Source: Gilvimarinus chinensis DSM 19667 (lineage in GTDB: Bacteria > Pseudomonadota > Gammaproteobacteria > Pseudomonadales > Cellvibrionaceae). From it: a stretch of 64,000 nt of DNA. Below are positions 28,138 through 47,788 of the stretch, in pieces. How positions within the stretch are numbered: position 1 is the stretch's first letter; every line of letters begins with the position of its first letter. The stretch spans positions 248,001 through 312,000 of the forward strand of contig NZ_KB898708.1 of the NCBI RefSeq assembly GCF_000377745.1, written 5' to 3'. The notes under the pieces are model-generated. The model saw nothing but the letters and a program-made list of their open reading frames with translations, was not told where the DNA came from and made no database searches. Both the position numbers and the translations under genes were made by a program.

Positions 28138-28325
28138 TTTGACTATAAACGTTTTTTTAATTATTGAAAACCGCAAAGCGAGCCAGCCCTACGAGCGATG
28201 CGTGCGCTTTAGGCGATAGAGGTCAAATATACCTGTATAAAAAGTCGCGCCTTAAAGGTGAGATAGAAAATCTCAGCCAACTACGAAGCACCGCTCTTAG
28301 AATCCCCTGCATCCAGCCGAGCGAA

Positions 28326-28417
28326 GGCCTATTTTAGGGCGGTAAGTACGCATGGACGCGTACGCAAGCATCGCCACGCCAGGGACGGCGTGTCGATGCG
28401 GCCCCCTAAAATCGGCC
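28326..28417. repeat. Intergenic hairpin repeat element
   Basis: Outer arms GGCCTATTTTAGGG-type (28326-28339) and CCCTAAAATCGGCC (28404-28417) pair over 14 bp with one mismatch. Inside, CATCG/CGATG and ACGCC/GGCGT form a second stem around AGGGAC. The compact two-level hairpin without coding capacity is like the dispersed palindromic repeats common between genes in marine gammaproteobacteria. Only one copy is seen in this window. Confidence 0.55.
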
Positions 28418-28480
28418 GTAGCGAGGGCACCCGAAGGGCTGAATGCCGGGGTGGGCTTTCTTTTCGTTAGTTTTCTTTGC

Positions 28481-39727: not shown

Positions 39728-40993
39728 TCAGGGGCGTCGGGTATCAATGATAAGGCGTATTCCCGCCGGCAGATCAGCCATATCCAAAGGCCCCACCCGA
39801 CCTTCCAGATCACCCGATTGCGGCATAGCCTGGCCCGACAGAGACAAGCGGGCAACAAGCTCAATTTGCCCCTCTTGCAGTAAACGTTCGGCGCTGGTCA
39901 TAGCCATGGATTCATCAAGCGTTACCGCCTGCGGAAACTTACCCGCGGGCGCGCGATAGACAGCCAGGGGCATAGGACTGCCTTGATACTCGCGCGCGAA
40001 CACAAACAGCGTTGACCCGGCAGGCACCTGCAGGTTATCCGCCAAGGAAACCTCGACGGGAATATTCCATTGGCCACCTTGGGCCGAAGAATTGGTGTCG
40101 CTCTTGAGCGCCGGCTCTGCTTTGCCCCCCTGAGCTTCGGCACGGGCTCGTTCAACCCCGGCCATCAGAGCCTGACGGCCTGGCGCACCCGGTGGTGTTA
40201 ATTCGGCGGCGCGCTGCCAATACTGGGCAGCAGCGGCAAAATTTTGTTGCTCAAAGGCGCGGATACCAGCAAGGCCCAAGGCCGTGGTATCGTCCGCATC
40301 CACCTCCAGCGCTTTGTTGGTGAGAAAGCTGATCTCTTCGCTCATGCGGTTGCCCTGCCCGAGGAAGAGCACTTGCGCTAATTCGGACGCACTGCCCGGC
40401 TCGTTAGGCACCCGCTGATACACTTCGCGATAGCCCTTTTCAGCCAGCGTGAAGTCACCGAGCTGACTCGCATAATTACCCAGCAAATACCAATACTGGG
40501 TATTATCTGGGTGACGCTCAAGGCGGCTTTGCACTAAGTCAATTAACTCCCGTGTACCGGTTGGGTCTGGGCTTTCACCCGCCTGCATGGCAAGGAAGTT
40601 ATCCTCTAGCACTTGCCGCTGCAAATGCGTAAACGCCACATCGCCACTCGCGCCACGCGCTAGATAGAGCACCGCGGAAACCACAACCGCAATACTGGCA
40701 ACGGCCAGCAGAAGCCAGCGCCCCCCATGTTGATAACCCGCGCTGCTTGATGGCTGGTCGGACAACAAGTTTTTTTTCGCTTCGAGCACAAGCTTGTCAA
40801 ACTGCACTTGATCAATTTCGCCCGCGGCGAGAGATTGAGCCAATTCTTGCTCATGCTCTCGGTAGAGCGCGACATTTTCTGCCAGACGATGCCCATGCGC
40901 TTGCTTTCGTTGCTTGCGTGCAAACAAAGGCCAAAGCACACAGGTTACGGTAACCAGAGACAGCGCTATGGCGCCGACGATAAAAACGGTCAT
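39728..40993 (-). CDS. ccmI: Cytochrome c biogenesis protein CcmI
   Basis: The 421-residue protein has an N-terminal membrane helix pair (FIVGAIALSLVTVTCVLWPLF and LLLAVASIAVVVSAVLYLAR), a charged cytoplasmic loop with YREHEQEL, and a periplasmic TPR region (NTQYWYLLGNYASQLGDFTL, AEKGYREVYQRVP) with a C-terminal beta domain. CcmI holds apocytochrome c for haem ligation with CcmF and CcmH. It overlaps ccmH by 4 bp (ATGA). It is the last gene of the split ccm operon. Confidence 0.93.
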   Translation of the reverse strand: MTVFIVGAIALSLVTVTCVLWPLFARKQRKQAHGHRLAENVALYREHEQELAQSLAAGEIDQVQFDKLVLEAKKNLLSDQPSSSAGYQHGGRWLLLAVASIAVVVSAVLYLARGASGDVAFTHLQRQVLEDNFLAMQAGESPDPTGTRELIDLVQSRLERHPDNTQYWYLLGNYASQLGDFTLAEKGYREVYQRVPNEPGSASELAQVLFLGQGNRMSEEISFLTNKALEVDADDTTALGLAGIRAFEQQNFAAAAQYWQRAAELTPPGAPGRQALMAGVERARAEAQGGKAEPALKSDTNSSAQGGQWNIPVEVSLADNLQVPAGSTLFVFAREYQGSPMPLAVYRAPAGKFPQAVTLDESMAMTSAERLLQEGQIELVARLSLSGQAMPQSGDLEGRVGPLDMADLPAGIRLIIDTRRP

Positions 40994-41505
40994 ACAGACT
41001 TCTCACGGGAATGAATGGACTCTGAGCGGTTAGTTTCAGCGTGATCGCTTTGAGTATGCGCTTCCAGTAACGCGTCAAGACGCGCCTGCTCGGAAGCCGT
41101 TAACTCCCCTTCTTCTGAGTGCTCCGCTTTCGCGCGCTTACGCACCATCAGGAGAACAACAATAACGCCAATCAGCAAAAGCGCGACCGGAAAAATCCAC
41201 AACACCGCGGTGGAAGAATCAAATGGAGGTCGATACAAAATATAGTTGCCGTAACGCTGAACCATTTCATCCACAATTTCTTTATCGCTGCGTCCGGCTT
41301 GTATCTGCTCGTACAATTCGCGTCGCAGGTCTCCCGCCTGCATGGATTCAGAGTCGGCAATGTTCTGATTCTGACATTGAGGGCAGCGCAGCTCTTTGGA
41401 GAAATGCTCGAATCTTGCGCGATCGACGGGATTCGAAAACTGGTAGATTTCTTCTGCCTGCACCTTTACAAAAAATAAAAGTAAAACAAAAACTAAACGC
41501 ACCAT
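40990..41505 (-). CDS. ccmH: Cytochrome c maturation protein CcmH
   Basis: Starting at MVRLVFVLLLFFVKVQA (a signal peptide), the 171-residue protein has the redox motif LRCPQCQNQN (Cys41, Cys44), the R-x-L-Y-x-Q helix, the RYGNYILYRPPF motif and a C-terminal membrane helix (AVLWIFPVALLLIGVIVVLL). CcmH reduces apocytochrome cysteines. The frame extends 90 bp upstream, but that part is a charged non-signal sequence. It is separated from ccmG by an 809-bp stretch holding two plus-strand tRNA genes, so it needs its own promoter, probably in the gap up to 41630. Confidence 0.93.
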   Translation of the reverse strand: MVRLVFVLLLFFVKVQAEEIYQFSNPVDRARFEHFSKELRCPQCQNQNIADSESMQAGDLRRELYEQIQAGRSDKEIVDEMVQRYGNYILYRPPFDSSTAVLWIFPVALLLIGVIVVLLMVRKRAKAEHSEEGELTASEQARLDALLEAHTQSDHAETNRSESIHSREKSV

Positions 41506-41629
41506 ATCGACCTCAATTGTCACAGAGTGGCGAGTATAACTGTAGCGCCAATCTGGTGCGAGTTTGGACTCTGCGTTTGTATGCTTTTTGGTCATCGACG
41601 ACGGACAAATAAAAATTTAAAAAAAGTGG

Positions 41630-41657
41630 TTGACCTTGGGCGGTTTATCATTAGAAT
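41630..41657 (+). promoter_or_regulatory. Sigma70-type promoter of the tRNA genes
   Basis: TTGACC (41630-41635) and TAGAAT (41652-41657) are spaced by 16 bp and lie 20 bp upstream of the tRNA-Val 5' end, which fits a short tRNA leader. A run of A and T just upstream (AAATAAAAATTTAAAAAAAG) looks like an UP element. Confidence 0.75.
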
Positions 41658-41677
41658 ACGCAGCTCTTGAACGGAGG

Positions 41678-41753
41678 GGGTGGTTAGCTCAGCTGGGAGA
41701 GCATCGCCCTTACAAGGCGAGGGTCACAGGTTCGATCCCTGTACCACCCACCA
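41678..41753 (+). tRNA. tRNA-Val (anticodon UAC)
   Basis: A full cloverleaf of 76 nt is seen: acceptor GGGTGGT with ACCACCC, D arm GCTCAGCTGGGAGAGC, anticodon arm TCGCCCT-TAC-AAGGCGA, T arm ACAGGTTCGATCCCTGT and an encoded CCA end. Anticodon TAC is at 41711-41713. It is followed 12 bp later by tRNA-Asp on the same strand. Confidence 0.97.
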
Positions 41754-41765
41754 ATTCAAGACTGC

Positions 41766-41842
41766 GGACCGGTAGTTCAGCTGGTTAGAATGCCGGCCTG
41801 TCACGCCGGAGGTCGCGGGTTCGAGTCCCGTCCGGTCCGCCA
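41766..41842 (+). tRNA. tRNA-Asp (anticodon GUC)
   Basis: A 77-nt cloverleaf is seen: acceptor GGACCGG with CCGGTCC, D arm GTTCAGCTGGTTAGAAT, anticodon arm CCGGCCT-GTC-ACGCCGG, T arm GCGGGTTCGAGTCCCGT, discriminator G and encoded CCA. Anticodon GTC is at 41800-41802. Its 3' end and terminator are duplicated downstream. Confidence 0.97.
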
Positions 41843-41873
41843 CTATTTAAAAAAGGCTCCACACTGTGGGGCC
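41826..41873 (+). repeat. tRNA-Asp 3'-end repeat, copy 1
   Basis: These 48 bp (last 17 nt of tRNA-Asp through CCA, then ACTATTTAAAAAAGGCTCCA and the terminator stem) recur at 42021-42068 with a single mismatch. The distance between copies is 195 bp. Confidence 0.9.
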
Positions 41874-41880
41874 TTTTTTT
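41849..41880 (+). terminator. Intrinsic terminator of the tRNA operon
   Basis: AAAAAAGGCTCCACACTGTGGGGCCTTTTTTT: the stem GGCTCCAC/GTGGGGCC with a short loop is followed by a 7-T tract, 6 bp after the tRNA-Asp CCA. It looks bidirectional because of the A-tract before the stem. Confidence 0.9.
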
Positions 41881-42020
41881 ATGCCCGTTTAAAATACCCA
41901 TGTCGATCACGGACGGGACGATGAACCCGCGAAGCGATGTTCGACAAAACGGCAGGATAGCCGTTTTGCACAGCGCGCATGCGCTGCCCGTGGGGCGAGG
42001 GCCAGGAGGGCTCGAGTGTT

Positions 42021-42068
42021 TCCCGTCCGGTCCGCCACTATTTAAAAAAGGCTCCACCCTGTGGGGCC
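42021..42068 (+). repeat. tRNA-Asp 3'-end repeat, copy 2
   Basis: This matches 41826-41873 with one mismatch (CCACCCTG for CCACACTG). After the stem the T-tract is replaced by TCGACGGG, so this copy no longer forms an intrinsic terminator. Confidence 0.9.
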
Positions 42069-42166
42069 TCGACGGGATGATAAGCCCGAAAGCCGCGGAC
42101 GATAAAATGGCATTTCGCGCAGGGCGAGGATGGCGCCAGTGCTTCTCGCCCTATCCGCCACAAATT

Positions 42167-42195
42167 AAAAAGGCCCCATAGTGTGGAGCCTTTTT
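42167..42195. terminator. Terminator at the end of the repeat array / behind ccmG
   Basis: AAAAAGGCCCCATAGTGTGGAGCCTTTTT has a stem GGCCCCA/TGGAGCC with one mismatch-type pair, flanked by A and T tracts. It can end transcripts from both directions: the tRNA-repeat RNA and the minus-strand ccmA-G transcript, which ends 120 bp away. Confidence 0.8.
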
Positions 42196-42314
42196 ATATC
42201 CATAAGAGCCTTGCAGCGCTCACGCCGACTCTTTACCTGCACCGCTCTTTGCCGTGCCCACACTCGGCGCATGGGCCAGCTGACAGTACTTGAAAAGGCT
42301 GAGCATTCACAAGG

Positions 42315-42845
42315 CTATAGCCCTTCCAGCTCCCGATACTTGGGCCCAAGCACCTCATTCCAGACTTTGTCGTTCACCACCCCGATATGACGGTAGTGAA
42401 TCATACCTTCACCATCCACCAAATACGTTTCGGGCGCACCGGTTACACCTAAATCCAACCCCAGGCGGCCTTCGTCATCGTAAACACTGAACAGATAAGG
42501 GTTATGCAAATCACGTAACCATTTTTGCGCCGCAGTTCGCTCGTCTTTGTAATTAACGCCAATAATGCGGACACCCTGCTCTGCCAGCTTATTCAAATAA
42601 GGATGCTCTGCTTTGCACGCAAAACACCAGGTAGCCCAAACATTTAATAAGACTGGTCGATTGCCGATGTCAGCCTGGGTTATAAACTCATCGGCATTTG
42701 CGACCTTGCTTAACCTAAACTCGGGCACCGGGTTGCCAATAAGAGCCGAAGGCATAGCGCTTGGATCAAGCCTAAGCCCCACATAAAAAAGTGGTAACAG
42801 AATCAGCAAGATAATCAGCGGTAAAAACAGCTTTAAACGCCCCAC
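42315..42845 (-). CDS. ccmG: Thiol:disulfide interchange protein CcmG (DsbE)
   Basis: Starting at the GTG at 42845 (3 bp after the ccmF stop), the 176-residue protein has an anchor (LKLFLPLIILLILLPLFYVG) and a periplasmic thioredoxin fold. The active site is WATWCFACKAEHP and the CcmG-specific GVNYKD and GVTGAPETYLVD follow. It supplies reductant for the CXXCH motif of apocytochromes. The frame extends 120 bp further up inside ccmF, but without signal-like character. The CFAC active-site dipeptide is uncommon compared with the usual CPTC/CPSC. Confidence 0.93.
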   Translation of the reverse strand: MGRLKLFLPLIILLILLPLFYVGLRLDPSAMPSALIGNPVPEFRLSKVANADEFITQADIGNRPVLLNVWATWCFACKAEHPYLNKLAEQGVRIIGVNYKDERTAAQKWLRDLHNPYLFSVYDDEGRLGLDLGVTGAPETYLVDGEGMIHYRHIGVVNDKVWNEVLGPKYRELEGL

Positions 42846-42847
42846 GC

Positions 42848-44821
42848 TTAGGCCTCCTGAACTCTGGTGACTGCCCCTGGCTGGCTCTTTACTTGGCGTT
42901 TGCGATATCGCTTGTCGATAACAGCCAGCAAACCACCGCCTGCCATTAACAATGCACCCAACCAAATCCAGCGCACAAACCGCATATAGTGAATACGCAT
43001 TGCCCAGCTCTCAGCGTTAATATTATCGCCCATGGCAATATACACATCGCGGAAAAAGCCAGAGTCCAGCGCCACCTCTGTCATGATTTGGCCGCTGGCA
43101 AAATACTGGCGTTTTTGTGGCTTTAACACCTGAACGACTTTATCGTTTTTACTCATTACCACTACAGCTTGATCGGCTAAATAATTGGGGCCGCGAACTT
43201 TCTCCAGTTTTTCTAAGGTGAACTGGTAGCCGGCCACGGTTACAGGCTGATTCAAGTTCATACGGACTTTTTGCATATTAGCGTAATGACTGTTTAAGCA
43301 AACGCCGAGAACAGCAACGGCTATACCTAAGTGAGCAACAACCATCCCCCAATAACTTAAACTCAGCTTTCTCAGCCCTGCTACACGCCCTTCTTTAGCG
43401 GCGCTTTTGCGCCACAAGTCGAACAGCGTTGTAAAACCTACCCAGCAACCGACAAAAACAGCAAACATCATTACCAAGGTAAAGTCTCCCAAGGCCAGCG
43501 GCACCACTATGGCGAGCAACAGGCTAACCACAGCCGGTAAAGCCAGAGCCCTGGCGACTTTCTTGGTATCAGTGCGCTTCCAGCGGCTTTCCGGCGCAAC
43601 CCCCATCAGCAAACAAATGATGGTAATAAATGGCAGGAAGGTCATATTAAAATACGGGGCGCCCACAGAATATTTGCCCAGCTTGAGGGCGTCAGCAACC
43701 AGCGGAAACAACGTGCCAAACAGCACGGTGATCATGGCAATAACCAACAAAATATTATTCGCAAGCAGCAAGGTCTCGCGTGACAACAATTTAAAGCCGG
43801 GCGCACTTTTTACGACCGGCGCCCGCAGGGCAAATAACAGCAGTGAACCACCCGCCACTACAGCGAGAAACACCAAAATAAATAAACCGCGCTCGGGGTC
43901 ATTCGCGAACGCGTGCACCGAGGTCAACACCCCCGACCGGACAAGGAAGGTTCCAAGCAGGCTGAGCGAGAATGCAAAAATTGCCAGCAAAATGGTCCAA
44001 CTTTTAAACAGCCCCCGCTTTTCTGTGACAGCCAGTGAATGAATAAGCGCTGTCCCCACAAGCCAGGGCATAAACGATGCGTTTTCGACGGGATCCCAAA
44101 ACCACCAGCCGCCCCAACCCAATTCGTAATAAGCCCACCAGCTACCCAAAGCAATACCCACCGTTAGAAATGCCCAGGCCACCGTCGCCCAGGGGCGAGA
44201 CCATCGCGCCCAGGCGGTGTCGAGCTTACCGGTAAGCAGGGCTGCAATAGCAAAGGCAAACACACTGCTGAAGCCCACGTAGCCCATATACAACAGCGGC
44301 GGATGAAATATCAGCCCTGGATCTTGCAGCAAGGGGTTGAGGTCGGCTCCGTCTTGCGGTGCAAGCGGCAAAATTCGGTCAAAGGGGTTGGAGGTGAAAA
44401 GAATAAACATTAAGAAGCCAGTGGCGACAAAGCCCATCACCGCCAGCACCCGCGCCTGCATGTCCAGCGGCAGTGAGCGACTAAACACGGCAATGGCGAA
44501 CGTCCACCCGGAAAGGATTAAAATCCATAACAGTAATGAGCCTTCATGCCCACCCCAAATAGCACTTAATTTGTACTTTATCGGCATCAAGGAGTTTGAG
44601 TGGTTGGCGACATAAGCCACTGAAAAATCATCCTGCAGAAACGCCCAGCCCAGCACCACAAATGCCGCGCCAATCATTACCAGCTGGCCTGTCGCCAGCG
44701 ACCTTGCAGCCAACATCAGGGTTTGGTTTAAACGGTAAGCCCCCCACATAGGCAATACAAAAAGGGCCGCACTCAATACCAGCGCAAAAATTAACGCCAG
44801 ATGACCTAACTCAGGAATCAT
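42848..44821 (-). CDS. ccmF: Haem lyase CcmF
   Basis: Starting at MIPELGHLALIFALVLS, the 657-residue protein has about 14 to 15 membrane helices and the haem-handling WWD motif GWGGWWFWDPVENASFMPWL. It ligates haem from holo-CcmE to apocytochrome c together with CcmH/CcmI. The start overlaps the end of ccmE by 11 bp. A start 12 bp upstream is also in frame. Confidence 0.96.
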   Translation of the reverse strand: MIPELGHLALIFALVLSAALFVLPMWGAYRLNQTLMLAARSLATGQLVMIGAAFVVLGWAFLQDDFSVAYVANHSNSLMPIKYKLSAIWGGHEGSLLLWILILSGWTFAIAVFSRSLPLDMQARVLAVMGFVATGFLMFILFTSNPFDRILPLAPQDGADLNPLLQDPGLIFHPPLLYMGYVGFSSVFAFAIAALLTGKLDTAWARWSRPWATVAWAFLTVGIALGSWWAYYELGWGGWWFWDPVENASFMPWLVGTALIHSLAVTEKRGLFKSWTILLAIFAFSLSLLGTFLVRSGVLTSVHAFANDPERGLFILVFLAVVAGGSLLLFALRAPVVKSAPGFKLLSRETLLLANNILLVIAMITVLFGTLFPLVADALKLGKYSVGAPYFNMTFLPFITIICLLMGVAPESRWKRTDTKKVARALALPAVVSLLLAIVVPLALGDFTLVMMFAVFVGCWVGFTTLFDLWRKSAAKEGRVAGLRKLSLSYWGMVVAHLGIAVAVLGVCLNSHYANMQKVRMNLNQPVTVAGYQFTLEKLEKVRGPNYLADQAVVVMSKNDKVVQVLKPQKRQYFASGQIMTEVALDSGFFRDVYIAMGDNINAESWAMRIHYMRFVRWIWLGALLMAGGGLLAVIDKRYRKRQVKSQPGAVTRVQEA

Positions 44822-45275
44822 ACTTCGCCTCATCGCAGGTTGCCTGATGTTTTTCGCCGTTATTCATCGCTTCGGCTACTTCTGGCGGCATATAGTTTTC
44901 ATCGTGTTTTGCCAGCACCTGATCGGCGTAAAATATATTATCTTCACGCCATATTCCATTCACCACAGCCGCCTCACCCTCAGCAAACAGGTCTGGCAAA
45001 ATGCCTTCATAGCTCACTGTTAGGCGGCCAGAGGGATCTACCAAGTCAAAAGTGACCTGCAGGGAGTTTTCATCACGAGAGACACTACCCGGCTGAACGC
45101 AGCCACCGGCACGCAGACGGACATCGCGGGGAACTTCACCGGTACTGAATTTCGCCGGAGGGTAAAATAAGTTAATGTTTTCTCGCAGGGCAAAAACCAA
45201 CAAACCAATGGCGATGGAAGAAAGCACCACCAGTGCGAGAACAATCAATAAACGCTGTTTGCGAACTGGATGCAT
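44811..45275 (-). CDS. ccmE: Haem chaperone CcmE
   Basis: The 154-residue protein has an N-terminal anchor (LLIVLALVVLSSIAIGLLVF) and an OB-fold periplasmic domain. The haem-binding His124 lies in VLAKHDENYMPPEV, with the nearby Tyr128 also conserved. CcmE carries haem covalently from CcmC to CcmF. It is 3 bp after ccmD and overlaps ccmF. Confidence 0.96.
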   Translation of the reverse strand: MHPVRKQRLLIVLALVVLSSIAIGLLVFALRENINLFYPPAKFSTGEVPRDVRLRAGGCVQPGSVSRDENSLQVTFDLVDPSGRLTVSYEGILPDLFAEGEAAVVNGIWREDNIFYADQVLAKHDENYMPPEVAEAMNNGEKHQATCDEAKYDS

Positions 45276-45278
45276 AGG

Positions 45279-45500
45279 TTACGACTCGCTGGAGGTTGGG
45301 CGTTTGTGGCGTTTTTGTTGATACTGTTGCAGCGCCAATTGTTGTTGAATTTTACGTTTCTGCAAGCGCAGCAACCAAAGTGGATGCACGAGCAGCGCCG
45401 TTAACATCAACAAAGCAATAGCAGTACAACTCCAAACGTAAATACCATGACCATCCATAGCGGCGAACTCTGCAACAGAGGCAAACTTAAAGTCGAACAT
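45279..45500 (-). CDS. ccmD: Haem exporter protein CcmD
   Basis: The 73-residue protein has one membrane helix (YVWSCTAIALLMLTALLVHP), preceded by FAAMDGHGIYVW and followed by a Lys/Gln-rich cytoplasmic tail. This is the usual CcmD layout; CcmD helps release holo-CcmE from the CcmABC complex. Position between ccmC and ccmE supports the call. Confidence 0.93.
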   Translation of the reverse strand: MFDFKFASVAEFAAMDGHGIYVWSCTAIALLMLTALLVHPLWLLRLQKRKIQQQLALQQYQQKRHKRPTSSES

Positions 45501-45504
45501 AAGG

Positions 45505-46263
45505 CTAATCTTTTGTGTGAGAGCTTTGCGTGTTCACCAATTCGGATACCCACTTAGTGCGGGCCTCGCGCGCGAGAATTTCCTGGCGGGTGTACAGAAT
45601 CAGCGATAAAGTATAAAAGCAGTAATAAGCGACGATACACAACAATAAGGGGTACAGCATACTCGGGTGAATACTACTGGAGCCCGTTAATTTAATACTG
45701 GCGGGCTGGTGCAAGCTGTACCACCAGTCTACCGACTTATAAATAATTGGCACATTGACGGTACCGACAAGAGCGAGAATGGCACAGGCTTTGTCAGCCG
45801 CCTCCCGAACGGGGTAGACCCGCCCAAGCATGATGATGCTTAGATACAGAAACAGCAAAATCAGCATAAAGATATTTCGAGCGTCCCACTCCCAGAACGT
45901 ACCCCAGGTCGGATACCCCCAAAGTGAACCAGTGATAAGCGTAAGCGCAGTCAATGCAGCGCCGACATAAGCGGCCGACTGCATAACCATAAAAGGCAGC
46001 TTCATTTTCCAAATGAGACCAATTCCACCAGCGATAGCCATCAGATAATAACCGGCTAAAGACAGTACCGCGGCCGGCATGTGAATGTAGATAATGCGGT
46101 AGCTGTTGCCCTGTTTGGCATCCACTGGAGCAAAGGCCAGCCCCCATGTAAGACCGACGAGTAAAAGCGCAACACTCAGTGGGGCAAACCATGTTAGCCA
46201 GCGGCTGGTTTTCTCATAAAACCAGCGTGGTGAACCTAATTTGTGAAACCATTGCCAAGCCAA
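45505..46263 (-). CDS. ccmC: Haem exporter subunit CcmC
   Basis: The 252-residue protein has six membrane helices and the tryptophan-rich motif TWGTFWEWDARNIFMLILLF between two conserved histidines (YIHMPAA and SLHQPASI). It presents haem to CcmE. It is 4 bp upstream of ccmD and 25 bp downstream of ccmB. Confidence 0.95.
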   Translation of the reverse strand: MAWQWFHKLGSPRWFYEKTSRWLTWFAPLSVALLLVGLTWGLAFAPVDAKQGNSYRIIYIHMPAAVLSLAGYYLMAIAGGIGLIWKMKLPFMVMQSAAYVGAALTALTLITGSLWGYPTWGTFWEWDARNIFMLILLFLYLSIIMLGRVYPVREAADKACAILALVGTVNVPIIYKSVDWWYSLHQPASIKLTGSSSIHPSMLYPLLLCIVAYYCFYTLSLILYTRQEILAREARTKWVSELVNTQSSHTKD

Positions 46264-46288
46264 AACCTATGCCCTCGTGGATATATTG

Positions 46289-46981
46289 TTATTGATTTGC
46301 CGATATTTTTAATGCCCCGGCAATCGCCGCAGGCATGACAATTAATGCTATTGCTAAGCCTGCACCTAGCAGCGCCAGCTCGCGCAGAAAACTGAACCCC
46401 GCCACCGCACTGCCCACACAGTTAGCGCCGATAATTAACACCGGCAAATACAAGGGCATCACGATTAGGGTAAGAACCAGCCCCCCTGCCCGCAGGCAAA
46501 CGGTGAGAGCCGCCCCCAGAGCACCAATAAGGCTCATAATCGCCGTGCCCAATAGTAGTGATAGCATTAACGCAATGTAACCCCCATCGGGCAACGCGAG
46601 CATGGAGGCGAGCACTGGCGAGATCAGAGAAAGGGGTAGCCCGGTGGTAAGCCAGTAGGCTGTAACCTTGCCCAGCACAGTGAGAAATAGCGGCTCTGCG
46701 GAGAGCTGGAACTGAATCAGGCTACCGTCTTCGTAATCACTGCGAAACAAGGTATCCAAAGACAGTAAGGTGGCCAGCAGCGCCATGATCCAAAGCATGC
46801 CGGGGGCAATGCTGCCTAAGAACTGGCGCGAGGGGTCAACCCCCAACGGCAGCAGCGTAATAGTAATAAGATAAAAAACCAGTGGGTTAACCACGTCTGT
46901 TCGCTGTCGCCAGATGAGCTTTAAGTCACGAGCGACAATGGTACGCCAGGCGCTGGTAGTTACAGTGCTTTGCTCAGACAT
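46289..46981 (-). CDS. ccmB: Haem exporter subunit CcmB
   Basis: The protein starts MSEQSTVTTSAWRTIVARDL and has about 230 residues with six membrane helices, including the conserved LGVDPSRQFLGSIAPGMLWI region and YEDGSLIQFQLSAEP. CcmB is the membrane part of the CcmABCD ABC complex. The start codon overlaps the ccmA stop region by 8 bp, so translation is coupled; a start 15 bp upstream is less likely. Confidence 0.95.
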   Translation of the reverse strand: MSEQSTVTTSAWRTIVARDLKLIWRQRTDVVNPLVFYLITITLLPLGVDPSRQFLGSIAPGMLWIMALLATLLSLDTLFRSDYEDGSLIQFQLSAEPLFLTVLGKVTAYWLTTGLPLSLISPVLASMLALPDGGYIALMLSLLLGTAIMSLIGALGAALTVCLRAGGLVLTLIVMPLYLPVLIIGANCVGSAVAGFSFLRELALLGAGLAIALIVMPAAIAGALKISANQ

Positions 46982-47642
46982 ACGCGCAAGCCTCATCTGG
47001 CTGAAAAGCCGCTAGATCCAGCGTGTGTAAATTCTCTAAGCGTAAAGGCTGATGCGAAGTTAAAACACTGATCCCGCCATGGGACGCGTGGGTGGCCAAC
47101 AACTGCTGCAAGCGCCCCACGCCCTCTTTATCAATCGCGGTGAAAGGTTCATCCAGAATCCACAGGGGGGCAGCGCTGAGGTAAAGTTGCGCCAAAGCGA
47201 CTCGACGCTTTTGACCAGCAGACAAATGACCACAGCTGGTGTTTTGGTACGCCTCTAGGTCCACCTGCTCTAACGCCGAGCAAAGCTCTTCAGCACTGGG
47301 GGATTGGCCACGCAGTCGAGCCAGCCACTGAATATTTTCCGCCACGGTTAAGGCCGGCTTTACCGGTGCTTGATGCCCCAGGTAAAACAACGAGCGGGTG
47401 TAGCTACGATTGCCTGCAATGGACTCCCCCCGCCAGCGGATGACCCCAGACGCAGGCGGCATTAATCCGGCAAGGGTGTGCAGCAGAGTGGTTTTTCCCG
47501 CGCCATTAAACCCCAGCACTTGCAACACAGCACCCGCACAACAGGTATACTCAAGTTGCGTAAACAGCACCCTGTCCTCACGCGTACAGGTTAGGTTACT
47601 TATGCTAAGTTCGTTTGGTGCGGGTTCTTCCCACTGCGACAT
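46974..47642 (-). CDS. ccmA: Haem exporter ATP-binding subunit CcmA
   Basis: The 222-residue ABC ATPase has Walker A GFNGAGKTTLL, signature LSAGQKRRVALAQLYL, Walker B LWILDEPFTAID and an H-loop region VLTSHQPL. The first gene of the ccm operon, it powers release of holo-CcmE. The ATG at 47642 is preferred; a TTG 12 bp upstream is in frame. The 146-bp gap to the divergent FliK-like gene must contain the operon promoter. Confidence 0.95.
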   Translation of the reverse strand: MSQWEEPAPNELSISNLTCTREDRVLFTQLEYTCCAGAVLQVLGFNGAGKTTLLHTLAGLMPPASGVIRWRGESIAGNRSYTRSLFYLGHQAPVKPALTVAENIQWLARLRGQSPSAEELCSALEQVDLEAYQNTSCGHLSAGQKRRVALAQLYLSAAPLWILDEPFTAIDKEGVGRLQQLLATHASHGGISVLTSHQPLRLENLHTLDLAAFQPDEACAYV

Positions 47643-47788
47643 CAGGACACTCAATGTTTATGGCCATCGGCCGAAAGCTGTAAGCCTTTGGCCAAAATTG
47701 GGTTGCGCGGCGATTATATAGCCACCTGCGCTAAAAGTTTACCCAAAACCGGGTTAAATGAAGTAAACAGCACCACAACAGGTCGAAT

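Follow-up and report, generated by a model that had tools for sequence, protein, structure and literature searches.

A two-unit tRNA-linked repeat array behind tRNA-Asp of Gilvimarinus chinensis with a core that recurs across Pseudomonadota

The tRNA-Val-Asp locus and its repeats

The window, i.e. the whole stretch of 64,000 nt of Gilvimarinus chinensis DSM 19667 that was analysed (contig NZ_KB898708.1, positions 248,001 to 312,000), contains a tRNA-Val and a tRNA-Asp gene, and the latter is followed by what is well supported as a two-unit tRNA-linked repeat (TLR) array (Table 1). The tRNA-Val-Asp-TLR locus (within 39728-47654) is opposite in strand to the surrounding cytochrome c maturation genes and is flanked by CcmH (40990-41595, - strand) and by a thioredoxin-like gene (42315-42965, - strand) that is probably CcmG. 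At the gathering score, Rfam recognises only the two tRNAs and one TwoAYGGAY RNA in the window, the latter at 28295-28459 (+ strand) with 53.6 bits (cut-off 43). TwoAYGGAY RNAs carry GGA loops like the Csr/Rsm titrating RNAs, and the present one may be such an RNA of this genome.

A stretch of 49 nt (41826-41874), comprising the last 17 nt of the tRNA-Asp gene and 32 nt of the trailer and terminator stem, is repeated 195 nt apart at 42021-42069 with one mismatch (98% identity). This is the sole direct-repeat family reported for 41400-42800, and in our judgement the length of the match exceeds chance by far. A third, decayed copy is made up of CTATCCGCCAC (42151-42161) followed by a stem (42166-42196), and the stretches between the copies, GACGGGACGATGAACCCG (41912-41929) and GACGGGATGATAAGCCCG (42071-42088), are related to each other. 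A first-pass annotation had already described a repeat of about 48 bp with one mismatch 195 bp downstream, a weaker third copy, related stretches between the copies and the loss of the T-tract from the middle copy, and all of these observations hold, the repeat being 49 nt long. Beyond them, we find that the two inter-copy stretches are by sequence nearly complementary to the T-arm and acceptor 3' strand of tRNA-Asp (GGACGGGAC..GAACCCGCG versus CGCGGGTTCGAGTCCCGTCC of the gene), and that a folded core with relatives throughout the phylum lies at 41941-42019. Each unit has the order antisense 3' end of the host gene, core, sense 3' end and terminator stem.

Table 1 Features of the tRNA-Val-Asp locus and of the repeat array
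Feature	Position	Strand	Basis
tRNA-Val(tac)	41678..41753	+	ARAGORN, Rfam
tRNA-Asp(gtc), host gene of the repeat	41766..41842	+	ARAGORN, Rfam
T1 downstream of tRNA-Asp, inverted repeat resembling a terminator, with T-tract	41849..41879	+	inverted repeat
Unit 1 left arm, near-complement of tRNA-Asp T-arm and acceptor 3' strand	41910..41931	+	sequence; family-wide antisense-arm test
Core of unit 1 with four hairpins; model R1, whose 19 sequences include the window copy, gives 82.8 bits	41941..42019	+	covariance model
Hairpin H1, loop AGGATA (GGA)	41945..41968	+	covariation
Hairpin H2, length variable across the family	41972..41985	+	family alignment/structure; fold
Hairpin H3, loop GTG here (family consensus GCCC-GNA-GGGC)	41986..41996	+	family structure
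Hairpin H4, loop AGGAG, one nt shorter than family consensus C-ANGGAN-G	41999..42013	+	family structure
Unit 1 right arm, sense copy of tRNA-Asp 3' end	42021..42038	+	direct repeat
T2, terminator-stem copy without T-tract	42044..42069	+	sequence, direct repeat
Unit 2, decayed: antisense arm 42071-42088, core remnant, sense 3'-end remnant 42151-42161	42071..42161	+	sequence
T3, terminator-like inverted repeat with T-tract	42166..42196	+	inverted repeat

Unit 1 (41910-42038) consists of a core of about 75 nt between two arms derived from the tRNA-Asp 3' end, the left one antisense and the right one sense. By the family structure the GGA motif is present in two hairpin loops, those of H1 and H4; the single-sequence fold favours a different pairing of the H4 region. 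Unit 1 folds with -61 kcal/mol and a z-score of -2.67, and its complement reaches a better z-score of -3.30. Unit 2 has a z-score of only -0.56 and gave no match at E <= 0.5 with R1, a covariance model of 19 cores that all come from the bacterial family of the window and include the window copy. Two GGA loops in the sole intact unit fall short of the many GGA hairpins of a titrating RNA of the CsrB/RsmZ type. A simple terminator scan of 41400-42400 reported no terminator, T1 included; pairing between the A-tract and the T-tract, which draws the latter into the stem, may be the reason.

Comparison with known tRNA-linked repeats

TLRs, including the tyrT repeats (RttR) of E. coli, were first described in 1978 (Egan and Landy 1978; also Rudd 1999; cited in PMC8144298). 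According to this 2021 paper, E. coli K-12 carries 22 TLRs at ten loci, and no function of TLRs is known as yet. The window array shares with the E. coli TLRs, tyrT/RttR among them, the position directly downstream of a tRNA gene on the same strand, the tandem arrangement, a terminal copy of the host 3' end (17 nt of the tRNA gene, compared with 18-19 bp in E. coli) and a homologous core. R1 recognises the rrnB T1-T2 stretch of E. coli K-12 (RrB; between 5S rRNA and murB) with 42.2 bits (E 2.8e-9), the E. coli tRNA-Ser locus annotated as RtT with 34.9 bits (E 1.8e-7) and three E. coli tyrT units (21.1-21.4 bits, E 4e-4 to 5e-4), whose spacing of 178 nt is similar to the 195 nt of the window; the stretch between tyrT and tyrV yields 11.9 bits (E 0.1). 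The likeness to tyrT/rtT that the first-pass annotation had proposed is thus supported at the level of the family, with the reservation that the Rfam model of RtT (RF00391) misses the window copy.

Even when matches up to E <= 5 are admitted, this model (cut-off 45 bits) does not detect the copy in the window; the order of its consensus, GGAUGAGAACC..GGUUCGA, CCCGAAGGGCGAG, GAGUAAUCC and tRNA 3' end, is the same as in the window. TLR units behind tRNA genes of Erwinia, Aestuariibacter and at two loci of one Lysobacteraceae MAG score 31-42 bits with RF00391, which is below the cut-off. A full RtT with 78.4 bits is found behind two tRNA-Lys genes of the present genome (C6 near 173876; anticodon assigned by eye), to which R1 assigns only 13 bits (E 0.054). 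Since R1 scores so low on the tRNA-Lys RtT and RF00391 misses the window copy, we regard the two as distant branches. No GGA loop is present at H4 of the tRNA-Lys RtT: this genome contains two subfamilies of TLRs side by side. The Xanthomonas sRNA models sX4, sX7 and asX2 were also tried on TLR loci and were rejected: all remained below their cut-offs, and sX4 matched mainly over the tRNA-Ser part.

As stated in PMC8144298, RrA, RrB and RrF of E. coli sit between dual terminators, become processed and bind CsrA via GGA motifs. Like the window unit, they lie between terminators and have (in rrnB) the four-hairpin core with two GGA loops, but they adjoin the 5S rRNA of an rrn operon, whereas the host gene of the window unit is tRNA-Asp. 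A further difference is that their transcription and their binding of Hfq and CsrA are demonstrated (PMC8144298). CsrA binding is reported there only for these three rrn-linked TLRs, and the 19 tRNA-linked TLRs of E. coli are predicted non-binders. Aligned E. coli tRNA-linked units (L120, L182) have neither the H1 nor the H4 GGA loop. As both loops are present in rrnB and in the window and absent from these E. coli tRNA-linked units, the window unit is tRNA-linked by position and RrB-like by its core. PMC8144298 also reports that a BLAST search revealed homologues of RrB in no fewer than 31 species, which all belong to Enterobacterales, and mentions the 3'ETS-leuZ sRNA sponge, a regulatory RNA from a tRNA trailer, which pairs with the sRNAs RyhB and RybB. 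With the window unit, a core of the CsrA type is seen downstream of a tRNA gene in a bacterium that does not belong to Enterobacterales, and the same core occurs across Pseudomonadota, with and without tRNA genes.

Distribution, structure and tRNA linkage of the core

A BLAST search with the inter-repeat region gave matches in 26 of 58 genomes (own genome included), many of them outside this locus. With at most 82, 17 and 16 candidates scored per genome in the 58-genome, class and phylum surveys, so that all counts are lower bounds, R1 detected the core in 37 of the 58 genomes (up to 56 matches in one genome), in at least 115 of 274 genomes and at least 92 of 222 genera of the class sample, and in at least 82 of the 299 genomes of the phylum sample, at least 60 of which lie outside the class. 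Among the hosts that a pattern scan identified by name are Gilvimarinus, Marinimicrobium, Idiomarina, Alteromonas, Dyella, Lysobacter, Erwinia, Ewingella and Stutzerimonas; three viral-classed contigs also match the pattern, and two of them share the same site. Up to 16 or more copies each are found in genomes that do not belong to the class, for example in family f210, and ARAGORN detected no tRNA gene at seven loci from such genomes (L212-L218). This phylum-wide spread was not found in the open-licence literature searched; the TLR core is far wider than the literature found states, and the window unit is a doorway to that family.

The first-pass annotation had proposed a genome search for the repeat unit and a comparison of the locus in relatives. 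The former yielded three R1 matches in addition to the window copy. One (C2:541197) is a core that, judged by eye, interrupts an incomplete tRNA-Ala copy in its T-loop; an intact tRNA-Ala is located about 500 nt away. Another (C1:820933-821938) lies behind tmRNA, the tmRNA 3' end being matched by eye, and is followed after about 420 bp by a match to Phage_integrase, and the fourth match of the genome is antisense behind tRNA-Leu. In six other genomes of the genus the core is present at 8 of 12 tRNA-Val-Asp loci, with two cores at one locus and none at four; a further genome of the genus (G005) has a core behind tRNA-Asp.

RNAalifold on the 19 aligned cores predicted 24 pairs, of which 15 were changed on both sides, and the family structure has four hairpins: H1, whose loop contains GGA, H2, which differs in length across the family, H3 (GCCC-GNA-GGGC) and H4 (C-ANGGAN-G). 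A sequence-only profile over 218 loci extended the family to 283 copies with 276 distinct cores. In these cores the H1 cells comprise 2236 Watson-Crick, 22 G-U, 12 A-C and 36 other combinations (178 gap cells set aside), and the H4 cells 1216 Watson-Crick, 24 G-U, 10 A-C and 18 others (112 gap cells set aside), which means that pairing is strict and slightly biased towards the sense strand. When all 23 mapped pairs are taken together, G-U exceeds A-C by 143 to 91, and the multiloop pair 31-80, which is often unformed as modelled, shows the reverse (10 G-U versus 32 A-C). Since G-U pairs are few and outnumber A-C only about twofold in H1 and H4, selection on the sense RNA is not proven by these counts.

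The two loop types point in different directions. The H4 loop has G, G and A in 268, 264 and 266 of the 276 cores, and C-ANGGAN-G is reportedly the hexaloop consensus of RsmE/CsrA described by Schubert in 2007, an RNA-type signal. The C-GNA-G loop is of a type known from very stable DNA mini-hairpins, and such a triloop closes H2 in 100 of the 199 cores with a scored H2 hairpin. A GGA within the last 30 nt is present in 105 of 110 cores linked to tRNA or tmRNA genes and in 156 of 166 unlinked ones; 79 of the linked and 122 of the unlinked cores have precisely CANGGANG.

Of the 283 copies, which stem from several searches and an uneven sample, 98 lie 3' of the nearest tRNA or tmRNA gene within 450 nt, 12 are on its 5' side, a single copy overlaps with a predicted tmRNA, and no such gene is near the other 172, although some of these 172 are at locus ends. 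The copies located 3' are oriented in sense in 84 and in antisense in 14 cases. For 84 copies a gapped comparison of the arms with the host gene exceeded the 99th percentile of swapped-host controls for 43 sense and 33 antisense arms, and the first units (within 200 nt) did so in 31 of 61 cases for each arm. These counts imply that the arms track the host gene in about half of the linked copies while the core remains constant. The antisense-arm signal required the gapped comparison: without gaps (>=15/20), only 4/84 antisense arms matched (1/635 controls), versus 39/84 sense arms (2/635 controls).

A CsrA domain (PF02599) was found in 180 of the 299 genomes of the phylum sample, i.e. in 75 of the 82 core-bearing genomes versus 105 of the 217 others, a cross-table that was drawn up by hand from two lists on the assumption of the same 299 genomes and that is confounded by descent. 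Of the seven core-bearing genomes without a CsrA match (G070, G388, G409, G479, G540, G570, G591) three are less than 75% complete; G070 and G388 are 99-100% complete.

Possible role and origin of the array

The array anatomy, the homology to known TLRs, the covariation of the stems and the GGA loops are in agreement with a read-through, processed RrB-like RNA that binds CsrA/RsmA and is encoded by a core spread as a small mobile repeat. We consider this explanation moderately likely; it is also in line with the host-following arms, the sense orientation bias, the co-occurrence with CsrA and the precedent of RrA/B/F (PMC8144298). Transcription and CsrA binding of the window unit are assumed by analogy. 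Transcripts from the tRNA promoter that pass T1 would run on to T3, because T2 has no T-tract, and the enzymes of tRNA processing could cleave these transcripts after the sense tRNA 3' end, in the way that has been proposed for RrB. The RNA set free would present two GGA hairpins for weak binding of CsrA/RsmA, which would tie a little Csr titration to tRNA transcription; the decayed unit 2 probably adds length only. The core itself may have come here and elsewhere as a small mobile repeat, some of its sites being palindromes, including the T-arm region of tRNA genes.

Several findings argue against this RNA. In PMC8144298 the E. coli tRNA-linked TLRs are predicted non-binders and CsrB outcompetes RrB; there are, moreover, the core genomes without a CsrA match, the short H4 loop, the better z-score of the complement and the few G-U pairs. 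The rttR values in one E. coli RNA-seq table (PMC10651509) range from 0 to 0.47, and the screen table of a biofilm paper (PMC4606813) lists RttR with an unremarkable 97 +/- 9%. Because of these two table entries and of the modest rrA/B/F phenotypes mentioned in PMC8144298, we treat the RNA route with caution.

Alternatively, the core could act purely at the DNA level, as a non-autonomous mobile repeat whose single-stranded hairpins are moved in trans without any RNA benefit, tRNA trailers being good landing sites; we hold this for possible but rather unlikely. Mobility as such is indicated by many copies of the family at unrelated sites, up to 56 matches per genome, and by an empty site in homologues in one clean case: a 72-nt core lies in frame within a DEAD-box helicase ORF of Stutzerimonas (L104), and two aligned homologues on Cupriavidus and Azotobacter plasmids are without exactly that stretch. 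A comparison of phage portal genes (L117 and L101 versus AcaML1) gave no clean empty site, the C-termini being too divergent. In Dyella some cores are located inside palindromes, which we take to be REP-like, and in a relative of Gilvimarinus (L165) the core is part of a terminator-like hairpin with 25-nt arms and at most one mismatch. Flanking inverted repeats of >=12 nt accompany 15 of 124 unlinked copies versus 6 of 369 swapped pairs, and with only 15 of 124 the assumption that unlinked copies are always in palindromes was rejected. Copies in open frames of >=200 codons (31/121 unlinked, 16/96 linked) were set aside, as long frames by chance are common in GC-rich DNA. Rickettsia palindromic elements and REP/REPINs are likewise small dispersed palindromic repeats, some of them in frame in ORFs. 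The DNA-type H2 loops, the scarcity of G-U pairs and the better fold of the complement also suit an element that acts as DNA. On the other hand, no mobilising enzyme is known, the enzyme search having covered PF00589, and the 84-to-14 sense bias behind tRNA genes, the GGA loops, which suit CsrA/RsmA sites and are superfluous for a transposase, and the demonstrated RNA nature of RrB (PMC8144298) speak against a purely DNA-level role. The DNA-level explanation nevertheless survives, because GGA is kept alike in unlinked and linked cores.

The feature is ordinary in kind, being a TLR, and new as a member. In a bolder reading, the TLR core might be one ancient, phylum-wide mobile cassette carrying paired CsrA/RsmA-binding hairpins that lands in palindromes and gains host 3'-end arms in two orientations. 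In this way it would scatter sites for Csr titration among operons of stable RNAs, UTRs, ORFs and phages, with RtT and RrB of E. coli as two late branches. We put this forward as a tentative proposal that is probably too far-reaching. The spread of the core makes it testable whether it is a Csr site, mobile DNA or both.

Passive debris is a decidedly improbable explanation, according to which replication foldback or slippage at a palindromic tRNA trailer made the tandem copies and the core would be a relic that has no role today. The decay of unit 2 and the varying number of R1 matches per tRNA-Val-Asp locus of the genus (0, 1 or 2) would fit, and the succession of antisense and sense arms would suit foldback synthesis, but stems and loops conserved over the phylum are unexpected for neutral debris. 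An origin of the antisense arm by tRNA-primed reverse transcription was also considered and found no evidence. The first-pass annotation had offered scars of site-specific integration (att sites of phages or islands) as an alternative: tRNA 3' ends are common attachment sites and an integrase gene is located at a distance of about 420 bp from the copy behind tmRNA (C1:821429), but this remains unsupported and highly improbable, since ccm genes lie on both sides of the locus, the integrase search, which covered the tyrosine-integrase domain PF00589, gave no match on contig C3 (452,813 bp) and ten on other contigs, and the unit, about 130 nt long, has a conserved structure and is not a junction, with a core found at many unrelated genes.

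Note that the core also occurs in other arrangements. Several of 20 stretches from the genome with 56 R1 matches (G036) have flanks that are almost the same, which gives the impression of a core placed within a longer repeat, and Marinimicrobium sp. ABcell2 (L065, L082) has tandem head-to-tail cores with a period of 71-74 nt.
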